Below, piece by piece: positions 5,601-60,605 of a stretch of 64,000 bases of DNA. This DNA comes from Stenopsyche tienmushanensis (taxonomy: Eukaryota > Arthropoda > Insecta > Trichoptera > Stenopsychidae). A model generated the notes under the pieces. It saw only the letters and a program-made list of their open reading frames with translations. It made no database searches and was not told the origin of the DNA. Location of the stretch: positions 62,001-126,000 of the forward strand of contig WACJ01000006.1 in the NCBI GenBank assembly GCA_008973525.1, read 5' to 3'. Made by a program: the position numbers and the translations under genes. The stretch's first letter is position 1. The number at the start of each line of letters is the position of its first letter.

Positions 5601-6299
5601 CGAGACATAAAACCTCCGACTTTAAAACCCACGCGTATTCTTAATTTGCAAGATCATACATAAAATCGTATAAATAATACAATCTCACTGAGCTTTCGGC
5701 AATTGTTGACACTCTGTGAGCCGTGTGATAAATTCCGTGCCCAGATTCATCGAGCCCCGTCGTATAAATAACCGCCGGCGAGCTTTTTTACTGCCATGGT
5801 AAAACTTTATTTATCAACGCCATTTTGAAAGCTTATGCAAATTTAACTGTTCTAAAAAAGATCTCTTGCATAAAAATGCGACATAAAACTTACTTTCGCA
5901 CAGAGCAATTGAGTCACAGCTAATCAAAGAAAATGGCATCTGATTATTCACGCGAGCGATGCTAATCGACGGTGTTTTCATACAGATTTTAATCGGTCGT
6001 TCAATGATGATTAAATATTTGAGATACGCATCAACAGCCCAATATGACTACTGAACAAAGAAAATGATGTTTTTTTATCATCCTGCAAAAACATGCAATA
6101 AACTACTGTTTTGCAAAAACATGTGATTTGTCTGTCCTTACAAAATTTAAATGATTTATGGTGCCGTTAGATAGTGTTTATTTTTATTATACTGATTGTA
6201 CGTATTTTATTCTTGGACTTTTAATTTAAAGATTCGGGTTCAAATAAGTATCCATATTTCCGATTAATCGTCACGATTCAAATTTAAGCTGATTTCCTG

Positions 6300-6760
6300 A
6301 CTTTTAAAAAAACTCGCAAAATTCCCGATTTCCTGACAAATGATCTATTTCCGACGCTGCAGATGAATATTTATATACTATTATACTTTGATGTGGTTCG
6401 TAATTATATTACGGAGGAATACAAAAATTTTGAACTCCGTATCTATTATATTTCATATCAATATTCCCATTATTAGAGTCGAGGTGTAGTAAATACATCA
6501 CCGGTAAGGAAAGGTTAATATACCAATTTGAAAAACATATATGTACTGTATATATATATATATAATATATATATATATATATAGATTAGACAGTTACTGC
6601 CCTTAGGTGTCGCCTAAGCTCGCCAATTAGTAGTTACGCCACTGTTTCCAAGCGTCCAGATTTCCGCGGAAATATCTCGATTTTTAATAGCCTTCATCGT
6701 GCTGGTGACGTTTGCTAATTCCGGGATTGGATTCCCTATTCCTGATCTCCCAATTTATTG
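6300..6760 (-). repeat. hAT-associated dispersed repeat, copy A
   Basis: This block is an inverted copy of about 25735-26095. It shares the stretches ATTACGGAGGAATACAAA, ATTAGAGTCGAGGTGTAGTA and the CAGTTACT...CGCCTAAG...AACGCC section. In the 25.7-26.3 kb copy the same sequence lies directly before a hAT dimerisation domain. Here the homology stops near 6308 and the coding part is absent. A (TA)n run at about 6550-6583 is embedded in it. A third, short copy lies at 13885-13955. Confidence 0.5.
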
Positions 6761-9700: not shown

Positions 9701-10174
9701 TGACACAGAAATCTACCGTCTGTAATTATTAAACGAAAATCATTAACATTATAACAAAAATTATGTCATTTTCATGATACATATAAAAATGTATGGTTGA
9801 TTATTAAAAAGCTATGTTGTGCAATATTTTTTATACGGACAACATACGCTATGATTTGATTTATATGAAATGCTGATATGATTAATTTTAAAGTCTTTAA
9901 TTTATTGTTTTTTCGAAATTTTACATCTAAAAGCTACGATTGTACAATGCGCCTGTAGGATCGATTGCTTTCAATCCAGGCCAAATTCAAAGGTCGATTG
10001 TGCTCAATAAAAAAGGTCGTACTTCTTCCATGTGTTCCCATTGTGTCTATGCTTTTGTCTTTTGAAGTGGATGGAAGAGGATTTTCGGCCCAAATACTTC
10101 GGGTTCAATCGATCGAAAGCTTTATTTTTACGCTCGAATACAGCATTTATTAATCTAATGTTACTTTGTTTCAG

Positions 10175-13100
10175 GTCCTATTTCGAGCGTTTTCGTCAAT
10201 TGGTACGGCTGCAGAATTGTGACAATATGCGGCTCAATATTGGCGTCAGCCTGCGTCATCATCAGCGTGTTTGCTCCGAGCGTCTTGATGCTTTTCTTCA
10301 CGATAGGAGTAGGCACTGGACTTGGCTTCGGTCTTATTTATCTGCCGGCTATCGTCAGCGTCACGGTCTATTTCGAAAAGTATCGCTCATTAGCGACGGG
10401 GATTGCCGTGTGTGGTTCGGGAGTAGGAACCTTCCTCTTTGCTCCACTCACGAGGAAGCTCATCTCCGAGTACGGATGGCGAGGGGCGATGCTCATCATC
10501 GGTGGTATCATCTTAAACTGTGTAATATTTGGATTACTGTTCCGTCCATTAGAGCAAGACATACCCGACGACTTCTTGGAGCCACCCACGGAAATGACAA
10601 TACTTCAACCGAGAATGTCAGAATTGAACAATGCGCAACACCACGATAGCATAGTCAAGAGCAATGGCAATTCAATGCATCGATCACATAGTTCCGACCA
10701 CATGCAGCCAAATCCAGTGATCAAAGTGTATAAACAAAATGGACAACAGGTTTCAAACGGTGCACTTTTGCAGCATATATCGAATGGTGCACCATCGAAC
10801 TCAGAAACGGCTAGATTAGCATTGAGCCAACCGATGTTGAACCAATCGGTGGAACAAAACCGAAATTATAGAAGCCAGTCTTTAAAGCGAGTGGGAAGCG
10901 GAGTGATGAACAGACCTGATGTCTTCTATCAAGGGAGCTTCTTGCATTTGGCTAGTCATCGAGCGGGATCGGTGACTCCCGAAGAACAAATTCTCATGGG
11001 TCACCATGGATCCAGAAGGAGTAGTATTCGCTCTCTTGGACCACCGCCGACTGGTCTTCCGACGACCAAAGATTTCAAAGACACGATATCGGCATTGATC
11101 GACTTCTCTCTGCTGTCAGATCCAATTTTCATCATTTTTACCGTTTCGAATTTCCTCACCAGTATTGGATTTTACATTCCATACGTATATATTGTTGCAC
11201 AAGCTGAAAAGAGTGGAATTTCCAAAGAAAATGCGTCGTACCTTTTGAGCATCATCGGTATTGCGAACTCAATAGGAAGAATAGTATTAGGCTACATATC
11301 AGACAAACCATGGGTCAACAGATTGATTGTATACAATTCCTGCTTGACCATCTGCGGAATAAGTAAGTATTCTTAAAGCAAACTATTTTTATTATTCAGA
11401 TTACTAAAATTATATCACCATGTATTTTCATATGAAATGTCCGATATTGTAAAACCTTAACAGAATCATTTAAAATGGCATATTTTACCAGTTTGCTGTA
11501 TTTTAATCTTATTCAAGATTATCATTACAAGCCAAAACATACAATTTAGGCTACAAAAGTGATAATTTTGGGAACATTTGTCTTATTTCCGGAAAATATA
11601 TGCGAATTTCATTTATATCGACTTCAAATTTGCTGAACGTATTTTTAAACATTAGTTCTTTCCGATACACGAAGAAAAAAAAAGATTTTTTTGAATCAAC
11701 AAGATAGAAACGTCCCTTAAGTAACGATAATATTATTTGAATAGGGGCTTTTAGGTAGGAGATTTTCTATGTATGAGTAAAAATGTATCATTATTTAAAA
11801 ATGCCATTTAAATTAGTTTTGCAAATTAGCCACTGGTAGATGACCCTATCTGAAAATATTAATACTTCTATTCTTTCAAATTGTTGGTATGTTAAAGAAG
11901 TATTCTACAATCTGGATTTAAACTCGAACCTTTTTAAAAATATTCCATAACGACTTGCATTATTCACTTTTATTTGTCCTTTAACTGAAGAAACCTTAAA
12001 GAACTATTTTTTAATTCATCTGAGCAAAGATTCTCGGAAGATGAAATTCTATTTTTAAATTTTCATCTTCTTTCAACGACGTCCTCTATGAAAGTTGTAC
12101 ACCATTTGTCCTTCCTATATAGGAATGCAGCAATTTTCCCGTTGTATATATTTTTTATTCTGAAATATCAAATTTATTCTGCACACAATTTGCTTTTGCG
12201 ATACCGCTTTGTCTTCGCAAATATAATAATTTCATACATTGCTGTGCTCAGCCTTGAATGATATTTTCTTTCCGTGTCTACTACACGCATGGAGGGATTT
12301 CCCGTAAAAATCTACGAATACATTTTCTCACGCGATACCGAAGGAAAACCTTTCGTGACTAATTCGCAAATAATTCATGAATTTCGCAGTTCGATCGTAA
12401 AATATTTAACTTTGATTTGCAGATCAAATAGTATGAAAAAAAGATATGATCCGATACTTTGCGTTAAATAATGCTTTATATGTAGAATATTAAACGTTTG
12501 CTAAACGGCAAAGTTACATTCGTGTTTTACGAATGCAAATAAATCATATCCGGATTAACATAGTAATAACATGTACCCTAAATTGGATAAAACCTTGGAT
12601 AAAAGCTCGGTCTATTATCGTGAAACGATGGCCTTCTTATGATTAATGGAATTTTCTTTGAAATTCGAGCATTTGAAATCCAGGTATTTTTCATTATATC
12701 ACGAACCGCATTATTTAGATCTTCAGTATTTAATACGACAATATAATTATTGTTGGTTAGAAGAGTTGGACAACTTTCAAATGTCCACTATATTCAATTG
12801 ACTTTTTATAAAAAGTAGACGTCTTTATGATGCATATTACGCAGGAAATAATGAGCGTGACCATATGGCAACGTTAGACATTATTATTTAACTATTAATC
12901 TATCTATCCTATTTCTATCTGACAATATAATATTATATGAACAAATAACGATTATTTTTAAATGTCCAATTAAAATTCTTTCATGAAACTGAATCCCTTA
13001 ATTTATATTATTTTAAATCTACTGCTAATAAAAATGTCTCAATGTTTTGCAAATTTTCGCTTAAAAATAATTCGATAAGATGAAACAATTTGAAAATAAA

Positions 13101-16100
13101 ACTAAATTATTTGATTTAAATTTTCAAAATATTAAAATGGTAGACTATAACTTTCTCGATTTATAAATATTTACTGAAACAAAAATTAGCTTTGTACAAA
13201 TTGGTGCAAAATTGTTTAGCGAAAAAGTTTATAAACTTTCCGTAATCAAGACCCCCCCTAGGTAATGCTTAGCAAATATGGCGAAACTTGTTTCAAATCG
13301 ATCTAAAAATCTACAAATAATCACGATAAAACCGTCTATCTATTTTTTCTAATACTATTATATCAAAATATATGTGTCTAAACATGAAGTAATCAATTTT
13401 TATCTATCCGATCACCAAACACGCCGCTTTTCGATGGCATCAGAATGTGAGATCTAATCACTACCCAGAAAACTATCATTCAATATTTCCGAAAAACGAT
13501 ACTTATCCAAAATCAACGCGCAGCACAAGTGGCAGATTATAATGAATATGACGCGTGCTGAAATTCCCATTTATATTTTTTCAGGTACAATTCTGAGCGT
13601 CTTCTGCAAGGACTTTTATTCGATGGCCGTTTATTCAACAGTATTTGGATTCACAATAGGCGCTTACGTTGGCCTCACATCGGTCATATTGGTCGATCTT
13701 TTGGGGCTCCATAAGCTGACTGATGCTTTCGGGCTTCTCCTGCTTTTCCAGGGATTTGCGTCGATAGTCGGCTCTCCGATAGCAGGTAAATATATAACTT
13801 AAAAGCACCCCACCCACCCCACAGTATAGATGGCGGTTGTTGTTTTAAAAAAACACCTACGCGCTACCATGATATGTATTTGGTACACTATATGAAATTC
13901 TGAACCCCGTATCTATTATATTTCATATCGATGTTCCCATTATTAGAGTCGAGTTGATTGTAAATGCGCAAGCTAGCAGACTTGTTAAGCCTTTCAAAAA
14001 ATGCTGAAAATTTTGACATGAGAAAGCAGTGCGCAAGATGGATGCCGCGTTTGCTTATAATGGAACAAAAACAAATATTCCGGAGTATGCCAACCCGTTC
14101 AACAAAAGTGCACAGCAAGGTGCAAAACCTGAATTTAATATCCATATCCGCAAGGATATGTAACGTTGAGGCGGGGGCGCTCTCAGGGGCAGAGTTCCCG
14201 GGCGGCTCCCCGCCCCCACGTGCTCGTCGGGATGGTCCATTCTTCTTTCGGGCCGTAATGCTACTGGACGAATGGATGGGAATGGACGAGCGTCAAATAG
14301 AAAGACTTTCTTCTGTAAATAACTATTTATTCCACACGAAAGAGAGATCTGGCTGCAGAAGGGATGACCTCCCACAGCCAAGGCTAACCGACAACTCTCC
14401 CCGACTCCCGCCTCCTGCGCGTCACTAGCGATCCGTCGGGCCTGTTGCTTGTCCGCAGGGCCACAAGAGATGGCGCTGTTAAAATAACACATTGCACCTG
14501 AAAAGAGACGGAAGATGTCGCTTTTAATCTGGAAAAATTAATCTGCTCAGACTAATAGCGCTATTGCGTGAAGATGTTAAATCGCCCATTCTCGCCCATC
14601 GTTCGCGACCTCATTTGCCGCGAGTCACCAATATAAGTTAGCCTCTGAGGGTGCTTCTGTGATTATACAGATGGCATCGGGTAAGCATTTATCCCCGAAA
14701 ATGCCTCTAAACCCCTAAAAAAAGACGGAGTGGCCAAAGGTCCAATCGGACCGCTTTTCGGACCGCTGACATGACGCCTAACTTGAACATTACAAAACGA
14801 AGTTGTCCAAAGAATACTGATCGGTTGAGCTATTTAAATCGGTATAAAATATATTTGCCTTTATTTTATTGCGGGCTGGGTCGGCTCAATGTTTAAGCGA
14901 TAAAGAAGAAAAGAGGGATTAGACAATTTAGCATATATTAATTAAAACGGACATAATCAATCAGTATTGATTCATATAAAGTTGAATGATCAAGTAATTT
15001 AAAAGCCGCCTGTTTTGCCACCCCTTTGTTACAGCCCTGTTTAGATTTTAAATGAGTATGTATATAATCCCAAAGGGAGTCGTTCTTAGTTCTACTACGG
15101 TGTTCAAAAAACTCTATTATATATCAAAAAGTTTTCCAAGCACTTCGAAATTTCAGATCATCGAAGAGCAAATAACTTTTCTTTCCAAACACTGAAGTTA
15201 GATCATATTTCTTATAATTGTATTTGATAAAAAAAATTGCTTATTTTTATTACACACCTCAGGCAATCATAAAACTATTTATTTATAAAATGCGTTTGAG
15301 TTATATTTATGATTTATGACTATTTAAAGACTATATATTGATTGGATTATATGGTAAACCCATTTCAAATCAAAATTTAGCACTCCATCATAAAATTTTC
15401 CTCATAATTTTGATAACGTTCAATATTCCACAGAAAATCTCCCAGAAGTATCTTTAAAATCATACAAATTGTGCCTCAAACCAATTTATCTATTTACTCA
15501 ACACTAAATATATCACACAACTTAATGATAACAATATAATTATTTAGATCCGGAAGCAGTTTATACATACAATACATATGGAGCTTGTGCTCCCTTAAAC
15601 ATTTGTATTGTTCGCTTCAACGATGCTTTTTGTTTACCTACATTTGCTTATGTACAACAAATCTGACTTGCGGCATCGACTGATATAACGGCTCTATACT
15701 GAAAAGTAAATATGTTCTTGTAACATGTGTGATTAGTGCTGTTTACACAGTATCCATTGGTGACCATTGCCAAATATTCACGACGAAAATATTTTCTGTT
15801 TATCCATCAAACATTTAAGACGTTAGAATGAATCTTTATACTAAATTAAAGCTTATTCTTGTCTCTGCAGTTCGCACGTCACACTTACGCATGTTTTCTC
15901 TATTTTTAAGTAATAATTTACTGCTTCATTTTTGTAAGTGTTTGCAAAACAATGACATTTTTACTTTTCAGGACATTATTTTTCAGTTTTTCATATTTGC
16001 TAATCTAAAAATGTGCGCTATCAATACTTGAATGAATGCACAAAACTGGCTTTTAAATTTGTCTTATAATATTTAATAAGTATGTTTTATCATGTTTGTG

Positions 16101-19225: not shown

Positions 19226-21390
19226 CTATTGCTGATACGATATCATTGTGAAACCAGAAGTTCTTCTCCCTTTTTTAATAATCCCATAGTTCTTCTTACA
19301 ACGACCCAATAAAGCTGTTCGAATTCGTGGCTCTCCAGCCAAGTAGCACAATAATGGCACCATTGTAGAAGCCTTTAAAATTAACAAATAATATAGATTA
19401 ATAATGTATTGAATGTATATTTAGAAGATATTATTTGTTTTGATTTAATATACATACCTCAGAGCTGAGAGGAGCTAATATAACAATTGCTGTTGATGGT
19501 CTATGAAAGCGTAATGATCTTGTATAACTACTTGTAGCTATCCAAGCGGCTAAAATTGCTTGAGGAATCCAAAATAATAGTAAAAGACCAGCAACGGCGG
19601 CAGTGTTCTATAAAGAATATACTCTTACAATTATAAATAAACTAAAATTACCGTCTAACACAACATTTTAACAATCTCTTCCCATTATGTAAAGCAAATA
19701 ATAGAGTTGAAATTTAATATATGTATGTGGTCAGTAAGTACTTACCTTTGTAAGTGACCATTGCTCCCATTCCATATCAACCAACCGCTGACGCTTATTC
19801 AATAATAGGGCTTTCCAAAGAGAAACTATTCTAAAATATGTACATAAGAATAAATAATAAGATCACAAATGTTATAGATCAATATGCTCAATGTAATTAG
19901 ATTTAAGCATGCTAAATTTTATATAATTTATTATAAAAACTATTTGATACTTACATAACAATTATAGGAAGCAACCCTGCAATGATCACCACCAGAAAAT
20001 TAAAGCTTCCTTGTTTTAAATTATGATACCTCCAATCCAATGTGCAAACTGTGCCGGTTATATCGCATCCATACGAGCCGTAATCGATTAACGGAGGAAT
20101 AGAAAATGCCACAGAATACACCCAGCAAAAGACTATGCATCCAATGTAAAACTTTATACTCAGCTCTCTACCTAATAAATTAGATTTTATTACACCTCAA
20201 ATTAAATGTTCACTGAAGAACCAATTGCTACATATTATGCATGCAAAATATAAATAAAAATCACCATTTTTTGCACGTCTCGCTAGAAGAAATCTTTCAA
20301 AACATAAAACCATCAATGATGTCATTTGAAAAACGCCAGATAATTGATGCATGAATGCAAATAGCTTGCAACAATCTTGACCAAATAGCCATCTAAAATA
20401 TATATAAAATACAATGTATTATACAACATTCATTTTTTCATTGATATACATTTTGAAAATATGTTAATTTAAATTCTTACCTGCCCGCTATAGCTGACGG
20501 TCCAGCAAAGGGAAAACCTCCGATGATACCTCTTCCCAAGCTTGCGGTACACATATTCAAAATGAGTAAATGGCTTTTGAACGAAAGCAAATGACTCTGT
20601 ATAAATGTAACGATCATCCAACTATTTAAAAGAACGCCTCCGACCCCTATAAAAACATCATTTTATAATCATAATTTGAACAATCTCTATCGTCGTCGAG
20701 TATTAATATACGAATTAGATTAAATTACAGTTTCGTACCGGATGAAAATTGCTGCAGTGTGAATTAGCATGAAAGAACTTGATATACGGCATTCGTTGAA
20801 ATAAACAAGTATACTTTAAGAACTAAGAGATTTCCTTTCACTTTCTATGGAAAACTTGAAACGACACACCTCTTTAAACCTGATATTTTGAGTGATGCAC
20901 GGTGCAAAGAAAGCCAAATAATTTAATGTCGATAATATTAACGAGTGTTATATAGCAAATTTAAAATAGATAATTGAATGCATCAAACGTTTAACGGTAA
21001 ATTGATCATATTCAGCGATGAATTAGAAATCATCAACCAGATTAAATTGAAAGTAAAGCCAGTTCACACCATTTTAATTTATTCTCTATTCAATATGCAG
21101 ATCGATCATAGCATGATTATGATTAATATATGCGTGCATTTAATATTATGCCAATTTATTCATAATGTTTTATACAAACAAACAACGAGCAAAGCATAAC
21201 CGATACATGTTATTCATTTTTATGAGATGTATAATTTTGTTTGCGTTATATGCGAATTTATTAACATTATTTGAGGGAATTGAATAATATAATAAATAAA
21301 TCACTCACCGAATATAATAATACAAGAACCTAATAAGGTCTTGTATGAATTATCCAATGTGTACCAAGGACACTCAGATTCTGAATACAT
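19226..21390 (-). CDS. Opsin-like GPCR with Glu at the retinal-lysine position
   Basis: Seven exons on the minus strand join in frame: 21390-21309 (ATG), 20646-20481, 20392-20265, 20171-19955, 19830-19746, 19607-19458 and 19372-19226 (stop TAG), giving 324 residues. Seven hydrophobic segments are present. Opsin marks: Cys91 in TM3 paired with Cys168 in the loop-2 motif CTLDW, Asp162 at about the Glu181 position, and ERF at 115-117 in place of DRY, with the same 24-residue spacing from the TM3 Cys as in rhodopsin. In TM7, PLSSEASTMVPLLCY places Glu276 ten residues before the Tyr of NPxxY, exactly where opsins have the retinal-binding Lys. NPxxY itself is degenerate. The length fits RGR/retinochrome-type opsins. 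I recall an unclassified lepidopteran opsin group with Glu at this site and believe this is a member. Whether it binds retinal, and what it signals to, cannot be read here. The SLC16-like gene converges on it. Confidence 0.8.
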
Positions 21391-39130: not shown

Positions 39131-39502
39131 ACATGAACTATAAGAATAAAGCCTTCCGTCCTGCACTAATCTGCATATAATTTTAAAACAGTTTTAATAT
39201 ATTTAATTCTACCATTTACTGTAAACCAAAATTTTATATCAAATTTATGTGACTTATATATTGTGTAAATCGGCTTCAGAAATCTCAATTTCATCCTCAC
39301 TTTAAGACAATTCGATTTCATTGTGTTCGGAACTTGTTTAAAATTAATCGAGCAAATTGCAAACTGAGATTGATATAGATTTGGGTATATATATTCGTAT
39401 CATTCCATAAACAATAATCAGCAAGAAACACTCGGATATAAACGCAAAAAACATCACTGAATCTATTTCCATGCATCAAATATTGAAGAAAGATCACATT
39501 AC

Positions 39503-40667
39503 CTCTCCATTTGTGGCCTTCAGCATCTCCGATACCCCAAATAATTCGCAATTTCAAATCCAGAACGATGTAATTGGATTCCGGCAGGAATTTGAGCAGA
39601 TGCGACGTGATAAAGTTGTCGATGCCATCAGGAGAATCGACCTGCATCGATCCTAGCAATCTTGCGATGGCAGTTTGCAGAATTCCGACATGGTCTGGTG
39701 TCACTTTGATTTCACATTTTTGGCACTTCCAGAGAGTATCGAAGCTGAGGGGATCAATGGGCAGTAGAATTCCTGTGCATTGGCGATTTAGGCAATGCAG
39801 AGCTGCTAAATTGGTTCCTAATTCGGTTTTGTCGCAGCATCTGAAGCAATCGCACAAGAAGTGCTTCGTTTCTTTTAAATGATGTCGTCGAGCAGGTGTG
39901 CCCCATATCAATCCGGTGTAAGATGTGAATATTTCTGATCCCTCTGGGATAAAAGCTGTTGCTACTAAGGTCATATTTCCGTTTACATCGAAGGAGATTC
40001 TTGTGTTTGGGGAGCAAGTGTGATTTAACAGGGCGGACATCGGGAATAGCCCTCTCAAATCGACGCAGTCTTTTTCTTCTGTCCGCATTAACATTTCGTA
40101 AGCGTTAGCATCCAAAACACGACAGGCATGCATCATTGTGTCTTCGTCTTCTTTTGATATTTGAAAATGTTTTTTTATGAATTCAACTTCTCTTCCGTGA
40201 CGTGGAGAATCGTGCACTGCCAAATCTAACAATAGTTCTTTTTGTGGTCCATTTAGAATCAATGAGCGTAATGGGACTATATTTCTTGCAAATTTTTTAC
40301 CATCGATTTCGATTGAATCTTCTTTTTTACCCCATGATGTAATCAATGCACATTCTGGCTTATGTTTGGATACATTTGGACAGTCTGAACACAGGAGAAG
40401 TCCACAGCCCATGCTGCACATTTTGAGAGGCTTGATGAGGGTATTGCAAGCGATGCATCCGATTGGTACATCTTCGGAGATCCTGGGGCCAGCAATCAGG
40501 GGATGATCCACGTAAATTAGATCGCCGGGAAATAAATCCCGCTTTGAAAACAATCCTCTTCCTTCGACTGGTGATTTCATAATCTTCCAAGTGTCCAAGC
40601 CGACATTTTCTGATATCTTCTGAAGATGTGTCGCGATGAGTCCGGAAATTTTCTCCAAGTCAGACAT
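39503..40667 (-). CDS. SmydA-like SET/MYND protein, first coding exon (3' incomplete)
   Basis: The minus-strand ATG at 40667 opens 388 codons that run to a donor, GAGAG|GTAATG, at 39503. A split SET domain is visible: GRGLFSKRDLFPGDLI (37-51), an inserted MYND-type zinc finger with C71, C74, C84, C88, C93, C96, H102 and C106, then NHTCSPN (215-221), EIFTSY (245-250) and the cysteine-rich post-SET part CDCFRC (272-277). This order is that of arthropod SMYD-family proteins (SmydA/msta type). Family members are lysine methyltransferases or, in the insect A class, proteins of uncertain substrate. The usual C-terminal helical region should follow in downstream exons, which I did not find before 36 kb. 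It either lies further away, is short, or has been lost. A Glu is absent from the usual YGE-type end of the SET motif (here SYTG), but that also varies in the family. Confidence 0.8.
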
Positions 40668-42966
40668 CTCTCGATGGAGTCACGAATCGACTGAAGTAAT
40701 TGAATGACGAAATTACAATACGAGCACTATAACAATATATATATTGTTATCACCTTGGGTTTATCTTGATCTATTTTTGATTTAAAACCGCAGCTTTCAA
40801 CTGCTGCGATAATAAAATACAACACTAAATGTCATAACATAACAAAAAATTAGCACCAAAGTTACATATATCTATTTTAAAACTGTAAAAGGTTTTTATA
40901 AATTAGTTAAACCAATGTACTTATTTAACCTTATGAACAATCACTATTGTGGAAAGAGACGAAATTTAATGTTCCAAGCTGCTGAAAATCTGAGCCAACA
41001 ATACATTAACTCGATGTGTTACGTTCTGACCCATTCACTAAATAGATTTACGTAAATCTATATTTTTGCAGATCGATAGCAACGCAGCATGACTATGAAA
41101 TCATAAATGATATATTTAAAAAATATTGAGAATCTTGGAATAATCACTCATTGTAATTAACAATCTAAAGGTAAGGTCATCGTATTAAATGAATTGTGCA
41201 AATTCAATTGGATGCCAATATCTTGTAAGAAGCCAACGCTAAATGGATTGTCTATCGAATTTGCTTCCATGCCAGATTTTCCCCAATAAAATAGATCTAT
41301 GAATGCCATCCAATTAATCATTGCACCATAAAATTCAATTGAATTTGTTTGAAATATCTGGAATATAATAGTAATTTCATATCAAGAAACAATATGTATT
41401 TCGTCGCCCAAATGAGAAGATATGAAAATATTTTTAATGTTAAAATTTGGTTTCAATCAACATGAAATCATACAGATAAGTTATCCTAAAAATTTCGGAT
41501 AATTTATGCCAAAAATTCAAAGAAATGGCAATAAAGCTGATATCCTTTAAAGTTAATCGAATGCAATAAATAGTAACAATTTAAACAATGACAAATCACA
41601 AGCACAATAAATTATTTTACACTCTAGAACTAAATCACAAGTTTAAAAATGAAATTGAATCGTTCGTTCAATAACTAACACAACTCATGTCTATTCGACT
41701 GACGATAAATTAAGTGACTACTCAATATCAATAGATAACATGAATTCAACTCAATATTTAAAACGTTTACGATTGGAGATAATAAATCTATTGACATAAG
41801 ATGATAGCACAAGCTTGGACCCTTTTCGGAAATCATTTTCCGAGTAAATAATGACGAATTAAATGTTTTGATAATGGCCACTCTGCGAGCATTACTTATG
41901 GAATTTTTGGGTACGTTAGTAAAAATATGAATCTTAAGATTTACAAATCATCAAGACATTAACATTTCTATTTTAAATAGTGATTGCCCGGCATGCGTTG
42001 CAATGCCACGTCTCGCATAACAAACTGCGTACACAAACAAAAAATTTACTATGCCTATGTTATTTCCACAAATGTAAACAATAAGTTGGCAAAGTTTTAT
42101 TGCAATCGGATGAATGGTATGGCAGCGCATTAAATACGGACAAACAAACATTGATTTTTATATATTAGATATAAAGCTTGCCAATTGTTGTTTTTGTTCA
42201 TTATCAGAGCGAAAAATACAATTATAAATTCATTGAGCTATGTTCTGAGTTAATCTCAATATCAAATAAGATTTAGATATTGATTCTTATAAATGCGTTT
42301 AAACGGAGTTTATATTTTTCTGCAAACAAAATCAATTTGGAAAAATATTTTTCTCTGCGATTAAAAATTATCACATGACTTTTAAAATCAAAAAATATTA
42401 ATTATTCTTATATTTTGGTTATGCCCGTTTTCATTGTTCGCAATAAAAAAATATTTATTCATTACATTAAAATGTATATTATTAATTAAACTTAATTTTA
42501 TAAACCATGAAAATAATATATATTTTTTATTACAAAAAAGTATTTTTTATTTATTTTTAAATTTGAATTTACATTATGGTATTTTTATTATATTGCAGTC
42601 TATACATTTATCAGAATAGTAAAAACGTCGACGGTTTATATATGATATTTATATTGAAATTGTACTGAACATTTAAATATAAAAAAATCCATTTTCACAT
42701 GTATTTAAAAATAATTGGTTCGTTATTGAATTTTACATTAAATAATATATTTATATTTATATCATAAAAATAAATATTACCTGTATACGAAAAGAAGAGT
42801 ATAAATTATTCAATATATTTTTCGCATAATTATAAATCGACATAACTGTTGAGTTTGACGTTTGTAATGTGCGTATGGCAACACCGTTGAGTGATATGTT
42901 GGGGTTGAGGGGTTGGAGGTGCTGGCAACTCCGGGCGGGTGTCAGCGGTGGTATGGTCTTGGTGTG
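40668..42966. other. Divergent intergenic region, SmydA-like and Flacc-like genes
   Basis: The 2.3 kb between the two divergent start codons is AT-rich except for 42860-42966, where GC content rises sharply upstream of the Flacc-like ATG. It contains the repeat at 41980-42175. No coding sequence was recognised. Promoters of both genes should lie here. Confidence 0.45.
41980..42175 (-). repeat. Dispersed repeat, Helentron-like, copy 3
   Basis: Minus-strand reading starts ATCTAATATATAAAAATCAATG at about 42173, passes GCGCTGCCATACCATTCATC and GTTATGCGAGACGTGGC, and ends GCAACGCATGCCGGGCA near 41985. It is about 190 bp long and the most compact of the three copies. Confidence 0.5.
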
Positions 42967-45900
42967 ATGTCGGGGCGGCGCGGGGGCGGCGGTGGCGGCG
43001 CTGGCGAGCGACCGTCGGTGTTCGCACGGCTGGGCACGAAGGCGCCCACGTGGGCTCAGCGCCCCAAGGATGACAAACGCTTACTCTCGGCTGTCGTCGT
43101 GCGCCCCGAACCCTGGGAACAGTGGGACCAAAACGACCTAGAATACGCCGACGCTGACGTGCTAGAGAAGCGGCGCGAGCAGCTCCAGCGCGAGCTCGAT
43201 CAAGAGATGGAGCAGGGTCAGGCTAAAGGCCGACCCAAAGAAAAGAAAAAGCCAGCTTCTAGCTCTTCTTCCTCGCGCAGCTCCAGCTCTACTAGCGTCA
43301 GCACTTCCACATCGGGAGTCACTACATCTTCGTCTTCTTCGGGCCGGTAAATATCACATACTATCCTATTCTTGTCTCATTACATTTGCATTCAAAAAAA
43401 TGTGAGATCAACAGATCATACATGTCAAGATCAAAGGCTAACATGGATCAAAATAAAAAGTTTTAAGTTTAGGTGAGCCGCCAAAAAATCTTCAGATTTT
43501 CATAGAAGCATAGGCTTATTTCAAAACGAAAGAACCAGGAAAATTTAGTCCAGTGATTACTTTCAAAGCTGATCCAAAGTGGTTGTCATTAATTCTGGAT
43601 CTTACAAGGAACTTATTTCCTTTCATAAATGTAACTGCTCGCCCTGACAAATACTTCCAAACGTGGAAATTATTTCACAAGAGAATTTTCAAGTATTTCC
43701 AAGCCTGACTGGTACCTGTAAAATTCTATAATGAATTCTGCATTCATATTTGAATCTCAATCATCTCTATTTGCATATGATTGGGTAGGTTCTGATCCTA
43801 TATTTATAGAGAAACTCAAAGAAAACAAAAAAATAAAATCTTCACGTCTTGTTTCAAATTCATTTCCAAGACTACTTTAAATCTTAATTTTTCAACTATT
43901 TTTCCCACAGAACTAGCGTGTATTTGAACGCTTTAACTTAGTTACACATGTTCGTAAGGACCTGATTTTTTTTTCTTTACTGCATTAAATTTAAATTGCA
44001 TTAATGTTTTGTTATACAATGATGTTGGATCAGAAAACAAGCTTGTGTCTAGAGTTTTAGTTATTAAAAATGGACATATTTCGTTCAAACCCCAGAATTG
44101 TTTAAGAATCTTAGAGCAGGTTCACCAGCATAATAAGACAGGCTAGAATATTTGCCTTTTAATTCACTTACGTGAAGTCGCTTGAATTGCCACTGATTTA
44201 AGCCTCGAGATCTTATAAAATTAATAACATTTGTGATATATGACAGCACATTTGCTTTTGTGCATAGTACTATAGGACTGTTTCGACTGCGACCCTGCCT
44301 GTTCTGGCTGGTCTTCTGCCGCTAGACTTGCGGCTGCAGCTGGGTGCCACTCCTTATAGGTTCACAAACCGTTTACAGGTTTTTATAAGCAATAATTACA
44401 TTGACACATCTTTTCTGGATAACCTCAAACCTTGTTTAGAATCCGATGTGCAAATACTAAAGAGGAGGATACTTGTTGCATCTAATACTACATGGCAGGA
44501 AAGATGGATGAACGAGAAAGATAGAAGACATTTATACAAGTTTTTTAGTTCCATTAAATATCGTTTTTCGTGTTGTTGGGTTGTTCCATGCTATTGAACT
44601 TCCCAGTTTCTCACAGGATACGGACAGTTCAAGGCTTCTTTCCGTCGGTTTGGTATAGGAAGTTTTTCAGTGTCCTTGCACAGATACGGACATGACAGCG
44701 GATCACGTATTATGGTCATGTCCAGGCATGGAGGCCGATCGAGAAGTGCTCCTGCGTTGTGTCAGAGGTTTCACTTCAGGACCTTTTGGACACACAGACC
44801 TAGCGGCTGATCCCTGCGCATACGACACATTCAAAAAGTTTTGTTAAATTTTGGCACCAAATGTATGGAAGGAGGATTCTATGGAGAATAATTGCGTAGT
44901 CTACTTCTTCAATTGCTGTTAAATATAGAATCTTGTAGATAACTTTCTAGCATTTGGACTTAATAATAGATTCCAGGACAACTAGTAAAATTTTATTTTA
45001 CAATAATATTACTGTATATATTTTTTTTGATTATCTATTCAATCTGTAAATGCAATTTTAATTCCAATTACAGAGATCAACGGAAGAAGATTAAAATAAA
45101 AGCAAAGAGGAATTCAAGTTCATCATCAGGCTCAGATCGAATCCCTAAAAAGAAACATTCAAAAGACGACCCAAACAAGAAAGTCAATTGTAAGCGAAAT
45201 ACTATAAAAAAAGATGACAGGCTTCCAAAAAAACATGAAATACCTGCAAATAAAAAGAAACCACCACCGAAACCTGTTACTAACAAAAAATCCCTTTCAC
45301 CTGTGAAAAAAGCAGGTGGAACACCACCAATAAGTAACAAAAACATACCCAAAGGATATATTCTCTCAAAACATCGATCACGCTCTAAATCCCCACGAAA
45401 AGATAAGAATAGAAGTCCTTCTCCGCGAGCAAGTAAGGATCGAGAAAAAGAAAAGGAACGGGAAAGAGAAAGGGAGAGAGAACGAGAACGCTTGAAAGAA
45501 AGAGAGAAGGAACGTGAAAAAGAACGGGAACGTGAACGAGAGAGAGAAAGAGATAAAGACCGTAATAAAAGAAGTAAATCGCCAAGGTCAAAAGCTCGTT
45601 CCAGATCCCCTCTGAGACGACATGGCTCCCATCCTCCTCGAGACCCTCGTCGAAAAGATAGCCCTACTAAAAGTAGAGGTTCTTCTCCTAAAGGCAACAG
45701 AGGAGGAAGACAAGATGTGGTAGATAAACACAGAGCTCGAATATCTCCGAGAGATGATCGCAAAGATGATAAACGTAAAGATAAAGACTACAAGGACCGC
45801 TCACTGGAGCGACGGAAAGATAAGCACTTAGAAAAAGATAGACACGAAAGAGATCGTAAAGAACGAGAACCACGCGTCGATAAAACTCAGCGTGAAAAAG

Positions 45901-48900
45901 AAAGGGAGGGAGCTCTGGCCAGATGTCAAGAGAGGCAGAGAGATCGGGAAAGAAAAGAACAAGCCAAACGTGAACAAGATGCGAAACGAAATCCCAGAGG
46001 GCGTGATAGAGACCGAGGCTTGAACAAGGGTCTAGAAAAACCCGGTCCGGACAAGCCTGTTGAACGATTACTTCCTAGACCAGAAGAACGGCTTGCTGCT
46101 TTAGCGGCGACAAATAAAAGTCTCGGCTTGGAAAGAGCCATTTCATCTAATAGAGACAGAGCTGATATTCACACGGATCGGAATTCTCGAAAAACTGATA
46201 GATCTGCAGATAGAGACAGAATGGATCGTTTACCAAAACGGCAAAGTGATCGGCGCAACAGTGTCGAAAGACCAGATCGCAGCGAATATGGGCACAGCTT
46301 GGATCGATCATACGATCATTCTCATTCTATGGATAGAAGCTATGAAAGACCAGGAGAGAGATATGAAGACCTAGTCAGTCTCGATAGAGAAAGAGGAGAT
46401 CGTTCACCGGGAGCATATCCTATTCCCGGACGAGAAAGAGATTTACGATATGATTCACCATATGATATACAAGGACCCCACAGCTATCTGGATGGAGATG
46501 ATCGGGATTATCCTGATCATTTAGATGATCATCATGGTGAGAATATAGATATTTATTTCTTATATATTTGAAAATTAAATTAAACACTGCATTAATTTTG
46601 CATCACATTTTTTAAAGGATTTATGGATGATAGACGGAATTGCGGAAGGAGGGATGATATTTCATGGGATGGTAGAGAAACATCAGTGGATCAAGATAGA
46701 CAATACATGCATCATGGTTCATTAACACATCCACACAAAGAATGGGATAATGAAGACTACGGAGATTGGAATCGTCAAGATCGACATTGGCAACACCGAG
46801 ATTCACAACATAAGGTAAAACAACATTTATTACTCGATATATGCATTTATTAATATTTTTAAAATATCATTGTCTTTAAATTTACTTTGAAAACATTGAG
46901 TTTAGTAAATGAATTAAATAAAAAAAATCTTTTTCAGGGATTAGATTGGGTTGATAAAGAACGTGATGGTATAGACGGTGCTTGGATTTCTCATCGACAA
47001 CCTTTACCTACCTCCAGCAAAGGTTCAAGGGGTCGGGTTCTTGGTATGATTTATACGTAAAAGATATTTACTTATCATTGAAAAGATATATATTTTATAT
47101 GTAAATGTTATTAACTTTGTTTAATTTAATTTTGATAGATGATGGAAATTATAGGGGTCGAATGGATCATGGTCGGATGGATCAAAATTCAATGCATTTA
47201 CATTCAGCTTCGTCTAAGAGGAACCGAGATATACCGGTTGAAGCACCAGAATCTAAAAAACCATGTACACCCATTGTCCAAACATCATCAACACACTCCA
47301 GTTCTGCACAACTTCCGCATACATCAATTGAAGCTGAAAATCCTCCCATTCCAGATGATCTCAGCGAAATTAGTGATGATGCTGATGAAATACTCAACAG
47401 GGACGATGTAAGTAATTTCTCAAATTACAAATTGTTTCTAACAGTGTTTAGTTGAATTTTAACTGTGCTTAAAATTTTAATCTATGGGACGCATTTGTGG
47501 TGTAGAACAATTTAACAATTAATTATTTTTACACCTCTCGCCTAATTTGGTGCAGGAATTATCTGAGGTAACAGAGTCTACTGCAGTGGCGAACGATCCG
47601 CCTGAAAATCAAAACTCTGTTGACCCATATGGAATGATTGATCTTCAACCATTCAAGCCTGACTATGAACCTGTAAGCTCTAATATCAACTTCTGCCTCC
47701 TGATTTTTGTAACCGCATGTATTTAAATGTTAAATTAATTTGCATGATGACCTCCCCGATCCTTGCTTTAAACCATGTGAAATGTGACTCTAACAAGAAC
47801 AGCTTTATTCATTTGAAATACTCGATGTATCTTGGAACATATGTGCGGTAGTGCAAGCGAATGGGATTTTTATGATTATTTACATGCTAGTGCGTAGTTC
47901 TAACAGTGTTAATGAGATGTTAGTTAGCTTCAGTTTGTGTTATCACCTGGGAAAAAATAGAAGCATAATAATACAAGTCTTCATTGATGCATTTTTTGCA
48001 GCAAATTTATTAAAAAAAATAAACTCAACGTATTTGTATTGTATTTTCAATAAAATCAAAAAGGTTGTCTAGAGTAGTTTTCACTATCTCCCGAGGAAAA
48101 CTGCTCAGTCTTTATAAACATCCCACACTTCCTATCAAGACGGTTGTGAAAGCACCCATCGATACATTCATTCAGGAGACCCGCTGGGTGATCATTCTAA
48201 ATGAAACTCGGAGGTTATGCTACCTTCAATATCGAGCAAATGGATGTAGCCCTTTCCTGTGAGTGGATATTGAAGAGCCCCATAGTTCTGCAGTGGACTG
48301 TTTGTGGCTGCACTATGATGATGATGATTATGACAAAAATATTTTGATTTTCCTTTATGAATTACTGTTTATATTAAAGCTTTCCGATCACATATATCCA
48401 GAGAAATCTCCAGTAACGACTACTATGAAGCAGCGTAATAAATATTTGTGCTGATAGAATAGATCAAGTATTCGGAAATTGGTTAACAAGATATTGTAAT
48501 AAAATCAAATCAATTGATGTTGCTGACCCCTTTTGTAGGTTTTGATTCGCATGTTGTATAAAATGTTATTGTTAGAAATAAGGATTTTTAGAAATAATAA
48601 ATTTTAAAATGTATGCCATTACTATTATGAAAATGACATGCATGCTTTTTATATCTATCTTGTTTCAATTCAAAATACAAAATGATCCCTTAAAATTTGT
48701 TATTATTGTTTAAAAAAAAATAGAGCCAATAAGTAATAATAGTCCATTTTTATTTAACTACACCTTAATTGTTTAGATGTAAATATTGTAGTAGTCAAGC
48801 AATTAATGTTTAAAATTATTGTTTATTTTTAAATAAAAACTTTGCTGTTTTTATTCATTTTTAGATGATTGAAAATATGTCATCTAAAGGTTCAGGGAAA

Positions 48901-53653: not shown

Positions 53654-54732
53654 TCATACATTAGTGTCTTCAATTTGAAGCAAGAATGACAAATCAGATC
53701 CTACTTCATATTCCTTCGGTTTCTGACCTCTGCAAGATAAAATAATAGATTATTTCAATAAAAAACAGACTATTTTAAAGTAGATAAGTTGAATACTCAG
53801 TAAACTTATGATATACCACAGTATTTAAATCTAATATCGATGCAAAACATGTTATCAATCAAGAGTTATTAATGTTTTTGATTATTATTATTTGAGGTGG
53901 CTTTTAGCAATCCCTTTTATGAGACTATTGCCAACCATTTCGGCATTCAAATCATCAGTCTTATGCTACCATATTTTAAAATGTCAATATACTTACATTG
54001 CAAACAATTTTGAATTAGCAACACCTTTTAATGCAGCTTTATCACCTTCAATATGTATTGTTGCTCCTTCCCTAATTCCTAATACCGGACCCGTCGACGG
54101 TATTTCTAAATATTCCATAATTCTCGTTTCTCTTGATTCTCCTTGATGAGTGTCATTTGGTATGGGATCCACATAATGCGGGTTTATATTGAAAGGGATT
54201 AATTTTAAGGCATCAAAACTCGGTGGTTGAACTATGGGCATATCATTTGTTGTGCAAATATTCGGAGTAGCGACATTAGTACCAGCGCTGCTTCCAAGAT
54301 AAGGAATACCATCTTCCAATACGCGTCTTCTAATAGGCTCAATTAACTTGTTATCATAAAGTCCTTTGAGTAAATGGAAAGTATTTCCTCCGCCAACAAA
54401 AATTGCTTGGGCTGAATTAACAGCACAGACGGGATCCTCATAGGTATGAATACCCTCCACTCTATAATTCCATTGCTTTTCTAATACATTTTTCACTTTG
54501 TCTGTGTACTTGTTATAGTCGAGATATGCATATGGTACAAATAGTACTTGACTCACATTGTTCCTAAAAGCATAATCAATTATGTTTTAAACAGCTTGTG
54601 GTTAATTAAAAATATATATAAATATTATTACTTTTTGAATAATGCTTCTATGTCTTGTCTGGCGTAATTTAAATAGGTGTATCCATAAGGTGCTGATGAC
54701 GAGAGAAGAAGTAACTGTCGCTTCGGATACAT
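53654..54732 (-). CDS. Alpha-aspartyl dipeptidase (peptidase family S51)
   Basis: Three exons on the minus strand, 54732-54632, 54563-53997 and 53729-53654 (TGA), give 247 residues, the normal length of the family. The enzyme hydrolyses dipeptides with N-terminal Asp in the cytoplasm. The N-terminus MYPKRQLLLLSSS fits the family start. The nucleophile elbow YLGSSAGTN places Ser126; His163 in INPHYVDP and Glu199 in GIREGATIHIEG follow. The 37- and 36-residue spacings match the Ser-His-Glu triad of PepE closely. GGGNTFHLL near residue 91 is the conserved glycine loop. All key residues are present, so the gene looks functional. It is divergent from SYF1 with 450 bases between the start codons. 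A possible poly(A) signal lies 220 bases past the stop. Confidence 0.92.
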
Positions 54733-55182: not shown

Positions 55183-58100
55183 ATGCCAGTTTTAGACGAA
55201 AATAGGATTGAAATCATATTCGTAAGTGTTGATGTTTTAGTCATAGTTTATTGTTGCTTATTAATGTATTAACACATAAACGAATGTTATTATAACCTAT
55301 AATTTCTTAGTATAAATGTCATTTTTTCAATAATACTGTCTGTTTTTATTCATATTTGAATATATGAAAGAGCAATTAGTATTAAAACTGTCATTCTATA
55401 ATGTTCTAATGGAAACGCTATAGAATAATCTTTAAAATTAGAATTAAATAGCTGTAATATTTTTTATTTAAAAGTACACCTGATCCTCTTTTTATAACGG
55501 GAATCCATTACAAAGACTAGCGTATCGAAAAAGGTGTATGTGTAAAAATGCTACATAGATTCTATGCTCAATATCAACTCAAAATATCAAATTCTTAGAC
55601 TCAAATGAATCTAATTTGTTTATTATTTATATATGCATGATTTTTTCTATGTACATATAAAGTCACATTAGATAGATACTTAACATGTACACCCCCTGTG
55701 ACGGGTGTTCTTCCGCTAGCACATTAATAGAGTTTATGCAGTATCGATTAAAATCTGATTGATGGCTGACTAATTTTTACTATATTTTATTTCAAAACGA
55801 CAAAAAGAGGATCGAGTGAAATAGTAAAAATTGTATTTTGTGAATATTTAAATGTTAAATTTACAATTCGAATTATTTTTCTAGAGTGAAGATGATTTGC
55901 CATACGAAGAGGAGATTTTAAGAAACCCTTACTCTGTAAAACATTGGCTACGATATATTGAACACAAAAAATCAGCGCCGAGATATGAAGTAAATCTAAT
56001 ATATGAAAGAGCGTTAAAAGAACTACCTGGATCATTTAAATTGTGGTACAATTACTTAAAACTGAGGAGAACTCAAATAAAAGGCAAATGCTTTACAGAC
56101 CCTGGATACGATGAAGTCAATAATGTTTTTGAAAGATCATTGGTATTTATGCACAAAATGCCAAGAATTTGGATGGATTATTGTTCATTCCTTACGTTCC
56201 AGTGTCGCATTACAGTAACTCGGAAAGCATTTGATCGAGCTCTCAGGGCTTTACCAATTACTCAACATCATAGAATATGGCCTCTGTATTTAGAATTTTT
56301 AAGGAAACATGACATACACGAAACTGCCGTCAGAGTATTTAGACGATACTTAAAGTTATGCCCAGAAAATGCAGAAGAATTCATAGAGTATCTTATATCT
56401 ATTGGGAGACTAGATGATGCAGCTGTTAAGCTAGCTAACATCGTAGATAATGAACACTTTCAATCCAAACATGGGAAATCAAATCATCAACTTTGGAATG
56501 AATTATGCGAACTAATTTCTAAAAATCCAGATAAGGTACATTCATTGAATGTAGATGCAATCATAAGAGGTGGATTAAGACGATACACTGATCAATTGGG
56601 TCACTTGTGGAATTCTTTATCTGATTATTATGTTCGAAGTGGTTTATTCGATCGAGCACGAGACATATACGAAGAAGCTATTCAGACTGTTACTACTGTA
56701 CGCGATTTTACACAAGTGTTTGATGCATATGCCCAATTTGAAGAGTTAAGTTTGAACAAAAAAATGGAAGATGTTGCTCTAAAATCGAATCCTACAGACG
56801 ATGATCAAATTGATTTAGAATTAAGATTGTCTCGGTTTGAATATTTAATAGAGCGAAGATTATTACTTCTTAATTCAGTTCTGCTTAGACAAAATCCTCA
56901 TAATGTACCTGAATGGCATAAAAGAGTAAAACTCCACGAAGGGAAACCCCATGAGATAATTAATACATATACTGAAGCAGTTCAAACTGTAGATCCAAAA
57001 TTAGCAGTGGGAAAACTTTTCACTTTATGGGTGTCATTTGCTAAATTCTACGAAGAAAACAATCAAATTGAAGATGCTCGATTAGTATTCGACAAAGCCA
57101 CGCTAGTTCCATATACACGAGTCGATGACTTAGCATCTGTATGGTGTGAGTGGGCTGAAATGGAAATAAGGCATGAAAATTATGAAGAAGCTCTTAAATT
57201 AATGCAAAAAGCCACTGTGTTACCAACCAGAAAAGTTGATTATCACGATGAAACAGTATCTGTTCAAATGAGATTATACAAGTCTTTGAAAGTTTGGTCA
57301 ATGTATGCAGATTTAGAAGAAAGTTTTGGAACATACAAATCGTGTAAAGCTGTATATGATCACATAATTGACTTAAAACTCGCATCCCCACAAATAATTA
57401 TAAACTATGGGCTATTTTTAGAAGAACACAAATACTTTGAAGAGGCCTTCCGGGCGTACGAAAAGGGAATAGCTCAATTTAAGTGGCCCAACGTTTATGA
57501 TATTTGGAACACGTATTTAACGAAATTTCTCAAGCGATACGGAGGCACGAAATTAGAACGGGCTCGTGATCTTTTCGAACAGTGCTTAGAAAATTGCCCT
57601 CCTGAATACGTGAAATCATTTTTCTTATTGTACGCCAAATTAGAAGAGGAACATGGATTGGCGAGACACGCAATGGCGGTTTATGAAAGAGCGACTAGTC
57701 GAGTGCCACAAAAAGAGATGTTTGAAATGTTTAACATTTACATTAAAAAAGCTGCCGAAATATACGGCGTTCCGAAAACTAGACAAATATATGAAAAAGC
57801 TATTGAAGTATTATCAGAAGTACAGTCTCGGGAAATGTGTCAACGATTTGCCGAAATGGAGACTAAACTCGGGGAAATTGATCGTGCTAGAGCAATATAT
57901 GCACATTGTAGTCAAATGTGTGATCCTCGGGTGACCAGCGAATTTTGGGACACATGGAAAGAATTTGAAGTTAGACACGGTAATGAAGAAACAATGCGTG
58001 AAATGCTAAGAATAAAACGTAGCGTACAAGCCACTTATAATACACAAGTCAACATGATGTCTGCTCAGATGTTGAATTCTGCTACTCAGTCTGCTGGAAC

Positions 58101-58410
58101 AGTTGCAGACTTGGCTCCAGGTGCAAAGGACGGAATGAGAATGCTAGAAGCAAAAGCAGCAGAAATGGGTATCATCCCACAGAATTTACCGTCTAAAGGT
58201 GGTAACATATTATTTGTTAGGGGTGAAACTCAAGGTCAAGATCGTGATGGAACCGATACTTCCAGAATTGTAAATCCGGATGAAATTGATATAGATGATG
58301 AATCTGAAGAGAGTGAAGATGATATTCCAATTGAGAAACAATCTGTGCCTGCTAAAGTATTTGGTAGTTTGGCCCAATCAAAAGATAGCGATCAAGAAAA
58401 TGAAAATTAA
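55183..58410 (+). CDS. SYF1: Pre-mRNA-splicing factor SYF1 (XAB2)
   Basis: A 13-codon first exon (55183-55221, MPVLDENRIEIIF) splices after GTAAGT to a single 2,526-bp exon (55885-58410), giving 854 residues, essentially the length of human XAB2. The second exon starts SEDDLPYEEEILRNPYSVKH, the strongly conserved SYF1 N-terminus. The rest is a superhelix of HAT (half-a-TPR) repeats with recurring W-x-x-Y/W-x-x-F/L and ARxIYExA motifs, for example RARDIYEEAI and KTRQIYEKAI. It ends in an acidic tail (DEIDIDDESEESEDDIP). SYF1 is a scaffold of the Prp19/NTC complex in the activated spliceosome, and XAB2 also takes part in transcription-coupled repair. No break was seen. AATAAA is at 58454-58459. 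Confidence 0.95.
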
Positions 58411-60590: not shown

Positions 60591-60605
60591 AGTTATGAAT
60601 AACAG
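60591..60605 (+). repeat. Left target-site duplication of the R1-clade LINE
   Basis: AGTTATGAATAACAG directly before the element, identical to 62994-63008. Confidence 0.85.

Follow-up and report, generated by a model that had tools for sequence, protein, structure and literature searches.

Organization of the locus

The stretch of DNA analysed here (the window) comprises 64,000 nucleotides of contig WACJ01000006.1 from the caddisfly Stenopsyche tienmushanensis. A seven-exon gene runs on its minus strand from 21390 to 19226 (Table 1); the joined frame obtained by hand splicing encodes 324 residues and ends in a stop, and all six introns are of the GT-AG type. The product is a class A G-protein-coupled receptor (GPCR), with a Pfam 7tm_1 match over residues 35-267 (62.8 bits, cut-off 30.5, E 4.4e-17). 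A first-pass annotation, made from the letters alone, had described a complete 324-residue opsin-like receptor at this site; the seven-exon splice open to the stop and the opsin-type profile and fold matches given below bear this out, and the Cys91/Cys168 pair, the CTLDW and the ERF that it listed are all found in the spliced protein.

A profile built from 26 homologues, with the window row excluded, was compared with the 2811 stop-to-stop frames of the window, and six of the seven exons were recovered at E < 1e-8. Besides the gene, just three chance-level matches (E 0.41 to 0.66) appeared among these frames, none of them TM7, and no further TM7 exon was detected in them. Chance is excluded, because the protein is 62-66% identical over its whole length to an independent protein, that of the caddisfly Arctopsyche.

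Table 1. Exons of the opsin-like receptor gene and neighbouring features, in window positions; E values are from the window-free profile scan
Feature	Position	Strand	Content	E value
Exon 1	21309..21390	-	Start codon; Cys7, Lys17, start of TM1	1.2e-9
Exon 2	20481..20646	-	TM1-TM2; Ser63 (2.50), Arg66 (2.53)	5.7e-26
Exon 3	20265..20392	-	TM3; Cys91, Gln99, Gln105, ERF	2.4e-18
Exon 4	19955..20171	-	TM4, second extracellular loop with Cys161-Asp162 and Cys168, TM5	3.4e-25
Exon 5	19746..19830	-	Third intracellular loop; weak alone	0.16
Exon 6	19458..19607	-	TM6 and first half of TM7	5.2e-9
Glu276 codon	19458..19460	-	Site of the Schiff-base lysine (7.43); closes exon 6	
Exon 7	19226..19372	-	Remaining TM7 with PLLCY for NPxxY, C-terminal tail, stop	6.7e-12
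Neighbouring pieces	10159..11376 and 13458..13802	+	Major Facilitator Superfamily matches; second below Pfam cut-off (20.6 vs 33.4 bits)	
Neighbouring frame	39318..40679	-	SET-domain protein	
Neighbouring frame	44970..46571	+	RS/RE-rich, highly charged open frame, 533 aa; no Pfam match	
Neighbouring frame	53993..54586	-	Peptidase family S51 protein	
Neighbouring frame	55885..58410	+	Single-frame Syf1/CRNKL1-type splicing factor, HAT repeats, 841 aa	
Neighbouring frame	60603..62762	+	Open frame with reverse transcriptase domain	

Among the neighbouring features, the two Major Facilitator Superfamily pieces are probably exons of one transporter. We take the SET-domain protein to be probably of the SMYD type and the S51 protein to be a relative of aspartyl dipeptidase; the reverse transcriptase frame is presumably a LINE-like element.

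Homologues and phylogeny

The closest match in the protein searches is the Arctopsyche grandis protein, with 62% identity in the local and 66% in the multiple alignment. Full-length lepidopteran homologues are 45-49% identical to the caddisfly protein, and further matches come from Lycorma, Cryptotermes, Periplaneta, Macrosteles and Ischnura. From 38 retrieved proteins and the window, 29 near-full-length rows were drawn for all counts given below, covering the five orders Trichoptera, Lepidoptera, Blattodea, Hemiptera and Odonata. Nine proteins were excluded as short, partial or differently spliced (P0024, P0026, P0027, P0029, P0030, P0032, P0033, P0034 and P0037; P0029 is without the Glu-bearing exon and P0032-P0034 stop short of TM7), and P0035 because it is not a gluopsin; P0025, with a different N-terminus, and P0001 and P0023, with inserts, were retained. 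The insert of P0001, the Arctopsyche protein, is 22 residues long, sits at the junction that corresponds to exons 5/6 and has its first residue precisely at the exon 5 boundary; it is probably intron sequence retained in the gene model. No retinochrome, vertebrate RGR or vertebrate peropsin, and no sequence named UnRh, was among the matches of the protein searches, two of which scored about 8000 candidates each; these two, a profile search and a search with a four-row alignment, were directed at retinochromes, RGR and UnRh, and they yielded insect gluopsins and, in the profile search, one unrelated Branchiostoma receptor.

A tree was computed from 25 rows, of which 13 were gluopsins, four were lysine opsins and eight were further GPCRs encoded in this genome. 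The 13 gluopsin rows, including Ischnura and the Danaus and Manduca RGR-like proteins, form a single group (100/100). Within it the caddisfly protein is paired with its nearest relative, Arctopsyche (100/99), and the pair, itself outside the Lepidoptera group, joins seven Lepidoptera (99/98); termite and cockroach (100/99), planthopper and damselfly fall outside, in an outer branch order that is weak (88/92). A 97/97 branch has the eight GPCRs on one side and gluopsins and opsins on the other, the four opsins cohering just at 52/4. The root is a midpoint root that serves the drawing only, and it sets the gluopsins outside both opsins and GPCRs.

Structural comparisons gave an opsin-type assignment. 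In a profile search of solved structures the best 25 of the 60 matches listed (69 found) are opsins. The structure modelled for the Papilio orthologue (pLDDT 79; below 50 for residues 1-14) has seven main helices, with TM7 split in two pieces; its closest fold is squid rhodopsin, and the best 20 of 50 listed matches are opsins.

Assignment to the gluopsins

Guhmann, Porter and Bok named the gluopsins in 2022 for 33 sequences with Glu at 296, most of them with PVxxY or PLxxY in the place of NPxxY; these are reported chiefly from butterflies and dragonflies, and from beetles and scorpionflies too (PMC9368030). The caddisfly protein has no Schiff-base lysine at 296 and carries Glu276 instead, and its PLLCY at residues 282-286 agrees with the gluopsin PVxxY/PLxxY criterion. 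Of the positions that mark chromopsins (tetraopsins; PMC9368030), Pro272, equivalent to 292 (7.39), is found in 24 of the 29 rows and Arg294, equivalent to 314 (7.64), in all of them. We regard it as virtually certain that this is the gluopsin gene of the caddisfly, orthologous to those of other insects, which also go by the names insect 'RGR-like' opsin and 'visual pigment-like receptor peropsin'.

The first-pass annotation had pointed to an unclassified lepidopteran opsin group with Glu at this site. An insect group with Glu does exist, namely the gluopsins (PMC9368030); its restriction to Lepidoptera does not hold, because gluopsins are reported also from dragonflies, beetles and scorpionflies, and the nearest relative of the present protein is from a caddisfly. 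The 'unclassified' label itself is probably misplaced. Macias-Munoz et al. (2019) keep apart two opsins of Lepidoptera, UnRh and RGR-like, neither of which has an orthologue in flies; UnRh is reportedly without the lysine, head-enriched and located in cone and pigment cells (PMC6698658). The names deposited for our orthologues are 'RGR-like protein' for Danaus (P0017) and the damselfly (P0038) and 'Retinal G protein-coupled receptor-like protein' for Manduca (P0025). Because the orthologues carry RGR-like names, the group pointed to is probably the sister gene rather than gluopsin, a judgement that rests on these deposited names, and the eye localisation of UnRh must not be transferred to gluopsins. 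The annotation was right in calling the function unsettled; that of gluopsins is stated to be unknown (PMC9368030).

Caddisflies are unnamed in the main text of the gluopsin paper (PMC9368030), and a literature search that covered main texts in part found no report of a caddisfly gluopsin. A survey of caddisfly opsins deals with the LW, SW, UV and RH7 clades only and makes no mention of RGR, peropsin, retinochrome or gluopsin (PMC11381090). According to a 2016 insect opsin survey, RGR/Go genes have been lost in Holometabola (PMC4824169); if gluopsins are counted as RGR/Go, the caddisfly gene and its lepidopteran orthologues contradict that loss.

The glutamate at the Schiff-base lysine site

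The first-pass annotation had placed Glu276 on the Schiff-base lysine site and had named a protein search and an alignment of TM7 as checks. The searches returned insect gluopsins with the Glu conserved, and two alignments agree on the placement: the family HMM sets Glu on the Schiff-base lysine of jumping-spider rhodopsin (AKASACYNPIVY) in an ungapped stretch of TM7, and MAFFT sets Glu276 opposite K321 of Kumopsin1. The reading of PLLCY as a degenerate NPxxY is likewise upheld. Glu stands at 7.43 in every one of the 29 near-full-length rows, one from the window and 28 from homologues; so it does in the three shorter rows that include the TM7 exon (P0026, P0027 and P0030) and in the two homologue isoforms with another 3' end (P0024 and P0037).

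Glu276 is the final codon of exon 6, and therefore an alternative exon 7 could not restore a lysine. Since the isoforms P0024 and P0037 diverge immediately after the Glu, the intron right behind its codon (19458/19372) may be common to Lepidoptera and Hemiptera. We also considered another conserved lysine in the pocket, and rejected it: none is conserved across the 29 rows. Lys17, which aligns with bovine Phe37, sits at the outer end of TM1, where 25 rows have Lys and two have Arg; Lys92 (3.26), present in the caddisfly protein, is Lys in four rows and Gln in the other 25. The gluopsin authors likewise found no other conserved lysine (PMC9368030).

A rebuilt pocket and a dismantled activation network

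Residues of the 29 rows were mapped on bovine numbering. Position 2.50, which is Asp in the bovine, spider and squid opsins, is Ser in 24 rows and Cys in five; 2.53 is Arg in 27, Lys in one and Thr in one (Ischnura); 3.32 is polar throughout (Asn 22, His 3, Gln 3, Arg 1); 3.33 is Gln in all; and 3.39 is Gln in 28 and Glu in one. Pro occupies 7.49 and Asp position 181 in every row. Three residues of the activation network, Asp 2.50, Asn 7.49 and Pro 7.50, have thus far been given up for others in the family. The Arg 3.50 of the ERY/ERF motif is retained in 28 of 29 rows, as is Tyr178, and Trp 6.48 in all 29. In class A receptors, 2.50, 3.39 and 7.49 make up the sodium and activation network; with these three changed, that network is therefore dismantled and new polar groups stand at the old Schiff-base region, where Arg 2.53 may pair with Glu 7.43. 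An extra pair of extracellular cysteines, Cys7 (28 of 29 rows, the other being a gap) and Cys161 (29 of 29), may form a Cys7-Cys161 disulfide.

On the ionone side, the contacts 208, 211, 212, 261 and 268 are smaller or polar in the 11 rows listed. The summed residue volume at six ionone-side positions is 658-923 cubic angstroms in the 29 rows vs 986-1080 in four lysine opsins, a sum to be taken as a lead, the six positions having been chosen after the alignment was seen. The gluopsin paper, which does not mention 2.50, disulfide, sodium, 'salt bridge' or 'cysteine', seemingly leaves the substitutions at 2.50, 2.53 and 3.39 and the additional cysteine pair undiscussed (PMC9368030).

Conservation within the family

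Within the membrane part of 11 diverse rows, conservation is higher at the retinal contacts than at the remaining positions (0.60 vs 0.44, permutation p 0.003); the contact list includes structural residues such as the disulfide Cys and Trp 6.48. The helix thirds of 11 gluopsins score 0.40 (cytoplasmic), 0.49 (outer) and 0.49 (middle); the cytoplasmic third is thus less conserved by 0.09 (95% interval 0.01 to 0.17), or by 0.11 (0.02 to 0.19) when a single row stands for each order. The difference is reversed in four signalling control sets (-0.09, -0.08, -0.09 and -0.15), two of them made up of reference opsins, with overlap, and two of further GPCRs that this genome encodes; the interval excludes zero for -0.15 only. 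These controls are small, partly paralogous and not orthologue sets, with three rows short of TM7 and one (L007) misaligned at TM6; in the aminergic-like set (thirds 0.34, 0.54 and 0.53) it is the outer third only that produces the effect, the middle being as conserved as the cytoplasmic third. The control-set, pocket-conservation and pocket-volume tests were all designed post hoc, after the alignment, and serve as leads. Read in this way, the gradient would favour selection on a bound ligand rather than on G-protein coupling.

Other receptors in the genome

Across the 451 Mb of the species' own genome, the strong matches are the seven exons alone (E up to 7.8e-10; the next is at 1.2e-4). A second gluopsin copy was rejected, strong matches among the best candidates scored being limited to the seven exons on their one contig (C6). 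Among 13 weaker matches, two other opsin loci have the TM7 lysine. Opsin pieces at 5393-5734 (L024) and 4138-9215 (L025), on contig C157, seemingly belong to a single gene interrupted by an intron of roughly 15 kb. AKSSICYDPIIY, with the lysine retained, stands in the TM7 piece, and the opsin looks to us like a ciliary-type one. An opsin frame with a long C-terminal tail and a retained TM7 lysine lies at 4458-5579 (L029) on contig C88, and we take it to be Rh7-like. A candidate on contig C58 (L028) was rejected as an opsin, since it looked like another GPCR. Dense class A GPCR exon matches between about 469000 and 671400 of contig C53 suggest a tandem array of receptor genes.

Proposed function

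Since a Schiff base with retinal is impossible at 7.43, we infer that the caddisfly gluopsin is not a classical photopigment. Our best explanation as a whole, which we hold to be reasonably probable, is a gluopsin orthologue that is no photopigment and would act as a non-covalent ligand binder with weak signalling, and such a binder with weakened classical signalling is favoured over a photopigment. That the ligand would lie non-covalently in the rebuilt old retinal pocket and that G-protein signalling would be weak or atypical has about an even chance; the ligand itself may be a retinoid, a case of low overall probability, or something else. The rebuilt pocket would be polar towards TM2/TM3/TM7, through Arg 2.53, the polar 3.32, Gln 3.33 and Glu 7.43, and wider than before towards TM5/TM6, and the protein might serve, for example, in binding, storage or exchange. 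Against this explanation, Arg 3.50 persists in 28 of 29 rows, as expected if the receptor still couples, and at 2.53, one side of the putative Arg-Glu pairing, the Ischnura row has Thr. More tentatively, and with the chances on balance against it, gluopsins might be opsins that have become membrane proteins which bind a ligand, do not depend on light and for the most part do not signal. Their Schiff-base site would have become part of a new polar core (mostly Arg 2.53, with Gln 3.33, Gln 3.39 and Glu 7.43) that replaces the Asp 2.50/Asn 7.49 network, the pocket would have widened towards TM5/TM6, and a second extracellular disulfide, Cys7-Cys161, may pin the N-terminus above the pocket. These features are common to the sampled orders, from dragonflies to caddisflies, except Arg 2.53, which the damselfly is without.

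A non-covalent retinal photoisomerase or retinoid store, related to retinochrome and RGR, would take up all-trans retinal without a Schiff base and pass on another isomer; this is our best explanation in its special retinoid form, and it seems rather improbable. It would accord with the published grouping of gluopsins with RGR-opsins and retinochromes, with which they have derived NPxxY motifs in common, and with the authors' discussion of the missing lysine as a possible gain in throughput (PMC9368030). Trp 6.48 (29 of 29 rows), Tyr178 (28 of 29) and the acid at 181 (29 of 29) are retained as well. The ionone-side contacts, however, have given way to smaller or polar side chains in those 11 rows, and free retinal aldehyde absorbs mainly in the UV, which we also count against a photoisomerase. 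Expression points the same way: RGR-like message is reported as low in Adelpha heads, where that of the unclassified opsin is intermediate (PMC11802900), and the three Heliconius head tests gave P values of 0.022, 0.159 and 0.058 for RGR-like, those of the unclassified opsin lying between 1.9e-18 and 6.6e-12 (PMC6698658). A light-independent G-protein chemoreceptor, like the nematode nemopsin sro-1 or lysine-replaced Drosophila Rh1, is a similarly doubtful candidate; such lysine-less precedents are published (PMC9368030), all but one of the 29 rows have the ERY/ERF Arg and the pocket is polar as well as conserved, but Asp 2.50, Asn 7.49 and Pro 7.50 are all substituted and the cytoplasmic third is, within the limits of the test described above, the least conserved. 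We see the isomerase and chemoreceptor readings as possible with about equal odds, and a displaced lysine as less likely.

In that last case the protein would be a photopigment with retinal bound covalently to a lysine elsewhere. The lysine is movable in cattle rhodopsin (PMC9368030), Lys17 is Lys or Arg in 27 of 29 rows, and Lys92 is present in the caddisfly protein; yet Lys92 occurs in just four of 29 rows, Lys17 aligns outside the retinal contacts used here, and the 2022 authors report no alternative conserved lysine (PMC9368030), which leaves a displaced lysine highly improbable. That a pseudogene, a misassembly or wrong splicing conceals a lysine has hardly any probability at all: we rejected a pseudogene or splicing artefact in view of the intact open frame, the six GT-AG introns and the 62-66% identity to another caddisfly, together with the Glu found throughout the family (29 of 29 and three shorter rows), whose codon in the caddisfly gene lies ahead of the exon 6 splice site.

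Significance

Gluopsins are a published clade of animal opsins that have lost the retinal-binding lysine (PMC9368030). The caddisfly gene is a further gluopsin, of the kind described in 2022, from an order that we did not find named for it in the literature search; it fills in the sister order of Lepidoptera, where the gene is present and intact. The rebuilt, conserved pocket and the reversed gradient predict that the protein would bind a ligand without retinal attachment and couple weakly to G proteins. Beyond these predictions and its presence in a caddisfly, the finding agrees with existing knowledge.

Comparison with known opsins

Among the matches listed, visual opsins (squid rhodopsin, jumping-spider Rh1 and bovine rhodopsin) are the best fold and profile matches to gluopsin, and they have the disulfide pair, Trp 6.48 and a DRY/ERY-type motif in common with the caddisfly protein. 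They differ from gluopsins in Asp 2.50, for which the latter have Ser or Cys. The jumping-spider opsin shows Lys 7.43 and NPxxY in the alignment, in contrast to the Glu and PLLCY of the caddisfly protein; squid and bovine rhodopsins likewise have Lys 7.43 with NPxxY. Retinochromes and RGR-opsins resemble gluopsins in their derived NPxxY and are closely related to them in the published account, but they are described as retaining the lysine where gluopsins have Glu (PMC9368030). UnRh, a candidate retinochrome, reportedly lacks the lysine like gluopsins and is retinochrome-related in the published tree; that study handles it as a gene distinct from RGR-like (PMC6698658). The lepidopteran RGR-like opsin is by name the same gene as the gluopsin orthologues, the full-length lepidopteran homologues being those compared above with the caddisfly protein (45-49%), and shows no clear head enrichment in Heliconius (PMC6698658). 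The nearest likeness is to the gluopsins themselves, which share with the caddisfly protein Glu 296 (7.43), PLxxY, Pro 292, Arg 314 and an insect membership that takes in dragonflies and butterflies (PMC9368030).
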